DNA of 64,000 nt from Natronorubrum halophilum (GTDB lineage: Archaea > Halobacteriota > Halobacteria > Halobacteriales > Natrialbaceae), in contig NZ_QQTY01000002.1 in the NCBI RefSeq assembly GCF_003670115.1, positions 620,001-684,000 on the forward strand, written 5' to 3'. The notes below the pieces were generated by a model. The model saw only the letters and a program-made list of their open reading frames with translations. It ran no database searches and had not been told where the DNA came from. Shown one piece after another: positions 18,472 through 19,719 of the stretch (position 1 is the first letter of the stretch; every line of letters starts with the position of its first letter). The translations under genes and the position numbers were made by a program.

Positions 18472-19719
18472 ATGGACTTTTCGCTCTCGGCCGAGCAACA
18501 GCAGATCCGGGACATGGTATCGGAGTTCGTCGACGAGGAAATCGTTCCCGTCGCGGAGGCGATCGACCACGAGGACGAGTTCCCAGCGGATCTCGTGGAC
18601 GAGATGGCCGAACTGGGTCTGATGGGAATGCCGTTTCCCGAGGAGTACGGCGGTGCCGGACTCGATTACCACTCCTACGCGATCGGCCTCGAGGAGATTT
18701 CGCGCGGCTCGGGCGGCCTGGGAACGATCGTCGCGGCCCACACCTCGCTGGCGGGTAACATGCTCTACGAGTTCGGGGACGAGTCCCAGAAGGAGGAGTT
18801 CCTGACGCCGTTGGCTGCGGGCGAGGACATCGGCGCGTTCGCGCTCTCCGAAGCGGGTGCGGGCAGCGACGTCCCGGCGATGGAGACGACCGCGGAGAAG
18901 AGCGAGGCGCAAAGCGCCTCGGAACGGAGTAGCGCGGAACGACGTTCCGCGGACCGTTCGAACGGGCAACGCCCGCGAGAAGACGGCGCAGCCGCGGAGA
19001 AGGACGGCGACGAGTACGTCGTCAACGGCGGCAAGCTCTGGATCTCGAACGGCTCCGTCGCGGACACGGTCACGCTCTTCGCGAAGACCGATCCCGAGGC
19101 GGGCAACAGGGGGATCTCCTCGTTTATCGTCCGTCCCGAGGAGGACGACGGGTTCATCGTCGAGGGTACCGAGGAGAAACTCGGCGACAAGGGCTGTCCG
19201 ACGGCCGAACTCCGGTTCGACGATCTGCGTCTCCACGAGGACCGCCGACTCGGCGAGGAGGGCGAGGGCTTCGTTCACGCGCTGAAGACGCTCAACGGCG
19301 GTCGCATCACGATCGCCGCCCGCGGCGTCGGCATCGCCCGCGCGGCCTTCGAGGAGGCCCGCGACTACGCGAACGAGCGCGAGCAGTTCGGCCACCCCAT
19401 CGGCGAGTTCCAGTCGATCAAGCACAAGCTGGCGGACATGGACACGAAGATTCAGGCGGCCAGCATGCTGATGCACAAGGCCGCCGACAAGAAAATCCGC
19501 GGCGAGAACTACATCAAGGACGCCGCGCAGGCCAAACTCTACGCCAGCGAGGTGAGCCGCGAGGTTGCCAACGAGGGCATCCAGATTCACGGCGGCTACG
19601 GCTATACCAAGGATTTCCCCGCCGAGCGGTTCTACCGGGACGCCAAACTCAACGAGATCTACGAGGGGACCAGCGAGGTGCTCCGAAACACGATCGGCGA
19701 CCAGTTGCTCGAGGAGTAG
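18472..19719 (+). CDS. acyl-CoA dehydrogenase with in-frame palindromic insertion
   Basis: FAD enzyme oxidising acyl-CoA to 2-enoyl-CoA. 415 residues from ATG 18472 (MDFSLSAEQQ), about 34 longer than usual. N-terminal helical domain, FAD-binding FALSEAGAGSD near 123-133, NGGKLWISNGS near 185, and the catalytic-glutamate segment IYEGTSEVLRN near the end. Residues 144-177 are a Ser/Arg/Glu-rich, low-complexity insert encoded by a 102-bp palindromic element between AEK repeats; removing it joins METTAEK to DGDEYVVNG, the standard family sequence. The insert falls on the middle beta domain, probably in a surface loop. Confidence 0.93.
   Translation: MDFSLSAEQQQIRDMVSEFVDEEIVPVAEAIDHEDEFPADLVDEMAELGLMGMPFPEEYGGAGLDYHSYAIGLEEISRGSGGLGTIVAAHTSLAGNMLYEFGDESQKEEFLTPLAAGEDIGAFALSEAGAGSDVPAMETTAEKSEAQSASERSSAERRSADRSNGQRPREDGAAAEKDGDEYVVNGGKLWISNGSVADTVTLFAKTDPEAGNRGISSFIVRPEEDDGFIVEGTEEKLGDKGCPTAELRFDDLRLHEDRRLGEEGEGFVHALKTLNGGRITIAARGVGIARAAFEEARDYANEREQFGHPIGEFQSIKHKLADMDTKIQAASMLMHKAADKKIRGENYIKDAAQAKLYASEVSREVANEGIQIHGGYGYTKDFPAERFYRDAKLNEIYEGTSEVLRNTIGDQLLEE
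18890..19002 (+). repeat. 102-bp in-frame insertion with three hairpins and flanking direct repeats
   Basis: The 11-base word CCGCGGAGAAG occurs at 18890-18900 and again at 18992-19002. Between them lie three perfect hairpins with 3-base loops: GAGGCGC/GCGCCTC (18904-18920), CGCGGAAC/GTTCCGCG (18933-18951) and CGGGC/GCCCG (18963-18975). The unit is exactly 34 codons, keeps the frame and adds only a hydrophilic loop to the protein. It looks like a small palindromic mobile element. Confidence 0.75.

Follow-up and report, generated by a model that had tools for sequence, protein, structure and literature searches.

Protein-coding palindromic repeats have so far been a Rickettsia curiosity, accompanied by one report from a methanogen. 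Rickettsia palindromic elements (RPE) are dispersed palindromic repeats of ~100–150 bp that lie in frame in unrelated conserved genes and are translated as an extra peptide (PMC10969869, PMC2229807). They are described as long stem-loops that end in CGTC and have terminal inverted repeats of 12 bp (PMC2229807, PMC3733652). From Methanocaldococcus jannaschii, palindromic repeats with coding potential were reported (Suyama 2005, as cited in PMC2229807). GTAG-type REP sequences, which are cut by RAYT transposases, have short stems (5–13 bp) and short loops, fall into subfamilies with compensatory stem changes and are in some cases intragenic; REP sequences lie mainly downstream of genes, often as head-to-head pairs, and are tied to RAYT genes, with no archaeal REP included in that account (PMC3733652). 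The SMRs and PATEs of Haloquadratum walsbyi come from a haloarchaeon: SMRs span ~80–110 bp, carry prominent terminal inverted repeats and, in the case of SMR-A, target other mobile elements (PMC3119063). In nematomorph mitochondria, perfect inverted repeats within coding sequence are gained and lost between species, and their arms change in concert (PMC6649704).

Here we describe a previously unrecognised family of small palindromic elements, inserted in one frame into dozens of conserved genes across Halobacteria. It resembles RPE in being dispersed, palindromic and in frame in unrelated conserved genes, and to this extent the original prediction—that a hairpin-rich insert in a haloarchaeal gene resembles a Rickettsia-like protein-coding palindromic element—held up. 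Its anatomy differs, however: the haloarchaeal element strings together three or four short hairpins, each with a loop of 3 nt, is GC-rich, is found in an archaeal class and contains a discrete 54-nt unit with neither a long stem-loop nor a terminal inverted repeat. With the M. jannaschii repeats, as far as the citing paper describes them, it shares the fusion of archaeal palindromic repeats into protein genes, whereas those belong to a single species only distantly related to Halobacteria. Short stems and loops and compensatory changes recall REP sequences, as may the GTAG that 41 of 63 copies have at the hairpin foot; in contrast to REP sequences, the haloarchaeal copies examined are mostly intragenic and in one frame, and no link to a transposase was found. 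SMRs and PATEs are likewise haloarchaeal, transposase-free and without target duplication, but SMRs have terminal inverted repeats and are not described as in-frame coding inserts (PMC3119063). The nematomorph repeats differ in being long (up to 284 bp), in overlapping the original protein sequence and in not forming a dispersed family of inserts. From MITEs, the 54-nt unit is set apart by the lack of terminal inverted repeats and of a target-site duplication, although a second, 48-nt unit does have a 9–11-nt direct repeat. What is new is the anatomy (tandem short hairpins with 3-nt loops, an 18-codon unit), the host class and the scale, while the principle is already known. We found no report of such elements in Halobacteria in the open-access literature, subscription journals being outside the scope of the search.

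The copy from which we start lies in a Natronorubrum acyl-CoA dehydrogenase gene of the window (the whole 64-kb stretch of DNA analysed), which belongs to a genome of 4.67 Mb. This insert is very probably a copy of a dispersed Halobacteria family of small palindromic elements that reside in protein-coding genes, and is translated there, with translation being inferred. The existence of the family, precise present and absent sites, a single orientation and frame, intact flanking domains and compensatory stem changes are all directly demonstrated. The gene and the parts of the insert are as follows.

18472–19719, plus strand: acyl-CoA dehydrogenase host gene, 415 aa (Pfam Acyl-CoA_dh_N, _M and _1)
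18890–19002, plus strand: insert with both flanking direct repeats; same-genus orthologues join exactly across this stretch
18890–18900, plus strand: left direct repeat CCGCGGAGAAG, codons Ala-Glu-Lys, matching the native site of empty orthologues
18903–18921, plus strand: hairpin A, CGAGGCGC-AAA-GCGCCTCG, 8-bp stem, loop AAA; the module recurs in other genes
18929–18932, plus strand: GTAG at the 5′ foot of hairpin B (among 63 distinct copies, 41 have GTAG and 13 ATAG)
18930–18983, plus strand: discrete 54-nt (18-codon) unit B–C, missing from the 48-nt insert of Halobaculum saliterrae at the same site
18933–18951, plus strand: hairpin B, CGCGGAAC-GAC-GTTCCGCG, 8-bp stem, loop GAC, with compensatory stem changes across copies
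18963–18975, plus strand: hairpin C, CGGGC-AAC-GCCCG, stem of only 5 bp (from the fold and the family alignment)
18984–18994, plus strand: weak hairpin D, CGGC-GCA-GCCG, 4-bp stem; the module recurs, for example as GACGGTGAAACCGCGAGC
18992–19002, plus strand: right direct repeat CCGCGGAGAAG, by sequence inspection

The in-frame hairpin stretch of 102 nt and 34 codons had been placed between two copies of CCGCGGAGAAG, and the sequence is as described: the copies are spaced by exactly 102 nt, and the net gain is 102 nt or 34 codons. Of the three perfect hairpins with 3-base loops that had been proposed, two are exact with 8 bp each, the third comprises only 5 bp, and the weak fourth had been missed. 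Folded as RNA, the insert region scored 3.9 standard deviations better than dinucleotide shuffles, none of 200 shuffles being as good, and a search of the element against Rfam gave no match at any gathering score. Perfect hairpins with loops of 3 to 5 nt were about as frequent in the 64-kb window as in simulated sequence, and 854 kb of the genome held 11 clusters of loop-3 hairpins, no excess over the 6–17 obtained in simulations. Counts of hairpins or clusters were therefore dropped as evidence. Since hairpins are not rare in this GC-rich genome, it is the shared sequence of dispersed copies, together with precise empty sites, that provides evidence beyond chance.

At the acyl-CoA dehydrogenase site, the DNA of same-genus orthologues reads …GCGATGGAGACNACNGCNGAGAA(A/G)GACGG…, with none of the 102 nt present. 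An insert conserved at the protein level in all orthologues would have spoken against the original prediction; same-genus orthologues and solved structures alike lack it. Across Halobacteria, most of 80 orthologues have the short form, and a minority carry ~15 extra residues in the same place. The protein matches 120 solved acyl-CoA dehydrogenase structures, and the alignment is interrupted precisely where the insert lies; for 5ol2, the best homologue with a solved structure, both halves of the alignment meet there at one residue. No solved structure containing the inserted peptide was found. AlphaFold2 predicted the insert, positioned between two middle-domain strands, to be devoid of secondary structure (pLDDT ~28), in a model that is itself moderate (overall mean pLDDT 72).

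Shorter inserts made of the A hairpin and the D part occupy the same site in other genera: they measure 48 nt in Halobaculum saliterrae, and 45 nt both in Halorubrum and in two Natronolimnohabitans genes. Halobaculum litoreum is empty at this position, with flanks closely similar to those of H. saliterrae. The 48-nt unit is flanked by the 9–11-nt direct repeat, and the window insert equals the 48-nt insert with 54 nt (18930–18983) inside it. Going by sequence alone, the window insert is best read as a putative composite of a 48-nt unit and a discrete 54-nt two-hairpin unit. Because the 54-nt unit stands alone elsewhere, nested insertion is the simplest history; later loss of B–C from the short forms cannot be excluded, as the A-B-C-D composite is also common in other genes.

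Two further observations concern this site. The direct repeat at inserts of the 48-nt type follows the host's own sequence—GCGGAGCGC in Halorubrum and GCnGAGAAG in Halobaculum (loci L177, L189 and L182)—which is the pattern expected of target duplication. Separately, a paralogous acyl-CoA dehydrogenase in two Natronorubrum genomes (L006:1501–1953 and L015) has, at this very position, an in-frame insert of unrelated sequence that consists of two perfect hairpins (7 and 11 bp).

To map the family, we built a covariance model of the B–C unit from 11 copies that nucleotide similarity had revealed in the genus. The model returned at least 1881 matches in 124 of 125 Natrialbaceae genomes (best, 87 bits), as compared to 29 matches in 25 Natrialbaceae genomes (best, 28 bits) for a control model derived from reversed sequences; since no more than 43 candidates per genome were scored, the counts for copy-rich genomes are lower bounds. 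Class-wide, 308 of 391 Halobacteria genomes matched at 1e-5. Genome-wide statistics for the window's own genome rest on the model search and on 854 kb of sequence, in which seven matches scored below 1e-4. The absence of any further copy would have refuted the mobile-element interpretation; instead, the window's genome has copies in further genes, and almost every haloarchaeal genome sampled has copies as well. The exact linker 17-mer GCGGACCRTTCGARCGG is present in 16 haloarchaeal genomes and was not detected in ~310 other genomes of the phylum sampled outside the haloarchaeal order, and its reversed control scored zero in every genome sampled. Between copies in unrelated genes, nucleotide similarity covers at least 54 nt including the linkers and reaches 90% over 70 nt. 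The 54-nt core follows the consensus TAGCGCGGAnC-nnn-GnTCCGCGGACCrTTCGAGCGGGC-nnn-GCCCGCGAGAAGA, often preceded by hairpin A, in many stem versions, and followed by weak hairpin D. We also considered viruses as carriers and rejected them: the nine exact linker matches in IMG/VR all lacked the hairpins and are ascribed to chance. In several unrelated genes (L115, L116, L122, L127), a different upstream hairpin module, GTTGCGTC-nnn-GACGCAAC (peptide VASxTQR), was seen just before B–C.

To assign copies to genes, we relied first on the GC content of coding positions and second on Pfam. Hosts related to aminoacyl-tRNA synthetases and tRNA comprise IleS, ValS, GlyRS, PheS, GatE, Trm5 and a tRNA pseudouridine synthase; metabolic hosts comprise CarB (carbamoyl-phosphate synthase), MoeA, CobN, acyl-CoA ligases, FrhB, a chorismate-binding enzyme, a PurU-like formyltransferase and a HemQ-like protein. 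Further hosts are an HhH-GPD DNA glycosylase, an ABC transporter, a P-type ATPase, carboxypeptidase Taq (an M32 peptidase), a GNAT acetyltransferase and a Nudix enzyme. In IleS, ABC_tran, HAD hydrolase, AMP-binding, CPSase_L_D2, GatB_N, CobN and HhH-GPD, a single Pfam domain spans the insert, and plasmid records annotate copies within merA and cobN. Every copy with a decidable gene frame has the same orientation and frame, encoding the peptide SSAERSSADRSSGRSPREDG or a variant of it, and only one of the six frames of the element contains a stop codon. GC3-based frame calling was wrong for a few copies (L114, L132, L245) that lie amid hairpin arrays or gave close scores; here, the frame followed by the Pfam domains is the common one. 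Most copies examined lie within genes, and some are intergenic or at gene borders (L214–L222, L224, L227, L231, L235–L237).

Two further genes offer filled and empty sites for the 54-nt unit on its own, and in neither does the unit have terminal inverted repeats or a target-site duplication. Nine Natronorubrum have a PheS of 517 aa and a tenth has one of 535 aa, a difference of exactly 54 nt. Of the 122 Natrialbaceae genomes with a DUF5783 gene, most lack the unit there; it is carried by a few genomes from several genera, and in a tree of the flanks the filled copies group mainly with empty congeners. Since the DUF5783 inserts share private variants (GACGATTCG, GAGAACA) and the gene also harbors partial remnants or decaying copies of the unit, repeated independent hits are disfavoured; the data rather point to one old insertion with repeated loss, or to short-tract recombination. 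No gain of the element within one species was observed, so current mobility is not shown. A candidate target motif directly 3′ of the insert, GACGGYGA, drawn from the acyl-CoA dehydrogenase and DUF5783 sites, was discarded, as the native PheS site reads GAGTGGGGAG.

Stem changes are nearly always paired. Across the 63 distinct copies, pairing holds in 99.1% of stem cells, and where the sequence departs, the change affects both arms in 64 cells and a single arm in 8 (counted as cells, not as independent events); sliding the structure along the alignment, as a control, destroyed this signal. Loops are among the most variable columns of the family alignment. The IleS inserts of three congeners differ from one another in both arms of stem A and are identical in B–C. 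Third positions of identical codons differ at 3.9% in the B–C unit (11/279) versus 20.6% in the flanks (416/2017), a contrast that is inflated because the compared copies were chosen by score.

These patterns could mean that the hairpins are retained for a function of the RNA or DNA—mRNA stability, translation pausing or protein binding—with their spread being secondary. The low third-position divergence and the compensatory stem changes are in line with this idea, yet most orthologues in close relatives lack the insert, implying that it is not needed in any given gene; the best-scoring copies that were compared favour conserved ones, and decaying copies exist in the DUF5783 gene. We consider this account unlikely. 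Paired stem changes could also come about if the inserts were old, vertically inherited disordered loops whose palindromes were generated in place, through replication slippage or template switching, with no mobile element involved. Template switching could give the IleS pattern, and the unrelated two-hairpin insert in the paralogue (L006, L015) at the same site fits a local origin as well. Against it, unrelated genes share primary sequence over at least 54 nt, linkers included, and close relatives differ by the presence or absence of precisely this unit. Slippage may maintain palindromes after insertion, but it cannot copy sequence to another gene. As an origin it is largely refuted by the shared sequence at unrelated loci, and as a whole we deem this explanation very unlikely; as a maintenance mechanism, judged from sequence comparison, slippage remains possible.

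Copying between genes could, in turn, have occurred solely through homologous recombination or gene conversion between paralogues such as the acyl-CoA dehydrogenases. Haloarchaea recombine freely, which would favour this route, and several acyl-CoA dehydrogenase paralogues have related inserts at one site (L039, L051, L134, L176, L182). The host genes nevertheless span many unrelated families, which refutes recombination as the sole route and leaves that version with very little support; at individual loci, for example DUF5783, recombination may play a part. Lastly, the insert might never reach the protein, being removed from the RNA as an archaeal bulge-helix-bulge intron or skipped by the ribosome, like the hairpin elements of some mitochondria. 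The strong RNA folding and the location within essential genes are compatible with removal or skipping. At the insert borders, however, the minimum-energy fold contained no bulge-helix-bulge (two 3-nt bulges, 4-bp helix), only hairpins with 3-nt terminal loops, and every verified coding copy has one open frame and a similar hydrophilic peptide (SSAERSSADRSSG-type), which would not be required if the insert were removed or skipped. This possibility we regard as hardly tenable.

With a dispersed, translated palindromic element as the preferred explanation, the window copy would probably have formed in two steps: a 48-nt A+D insert with its 9–11-nt direct repeat, followed by entry of the 54-nt B–C unit into it. 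We infer that inserts would survive only where a surface loop accepts a hydrophilic, disordered peptide of 18–36 residues. The single frame would likewise be what remains after selection, as other insertions would bring a stop or a hydrophobic or basic peptide. The element might move as a single-stranded intermediate folded into hairpins, in the manner of REP or IS200/IS605, handled by an unidentified enzyme; this is only weakly inferred, from the absent target duplication and the GTAG foot. An association with IS200/IS605 itself was rejected: the element is absent from all three IS200-type (Y1) transposase loci of the window's genome, and Y1 genes are lacking altogether in G034 and G035, two genomes with ~30 copies of the element. 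No autonomous partner gene of the element was found.

It is conceivable, if rather doubtful, that a class-wide haloarchaeal mobile system moves 18-codon hairpin cassettes via single-stranded DNA into coding sequence, with templated repair keeping the arms perfect, and thereby keeps providing core proteins with disordered peptides inserted in frame, its enzyme being not yet known. What moves and proofreads the hairpins is the question raised. Coding palindromic repeats here span a whole archaeal class of free-living organisms with available genetics (Haloferax, Halobacterium) and affect aminoacyl-tRNA synthetases and other core genes. The family supplies exact pairs of empty and filled sites as well as a way, open to testing, for mobile DNA to add peptides to functional proteins, and it explains odd disordered insertions in haloarchaeal protein alignments.

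Several loci depart from the single coding insert. In one genome (G327; L214–L218), five intergenic copies of equal score, near the middle of each locus, lie within a hairpin array of ~200 bp that has T and A runs at its borders; a non-coding relative of the element has probably multiplied there recently. Other intergenic copies (L038, L046, L219, L221, L222) adjoin a conserved sequence resembling tcggttggggagg, which may be a further repeat or a structured RNA. An FrhB/FdhB-like gene, which in several genera contains consecutive hairpin modules of several kinds, seems to be a hot spot (L104, L105, L109, L111, L114, L118 and L132, near position 1500, with Pfam shown for L114 and L132).
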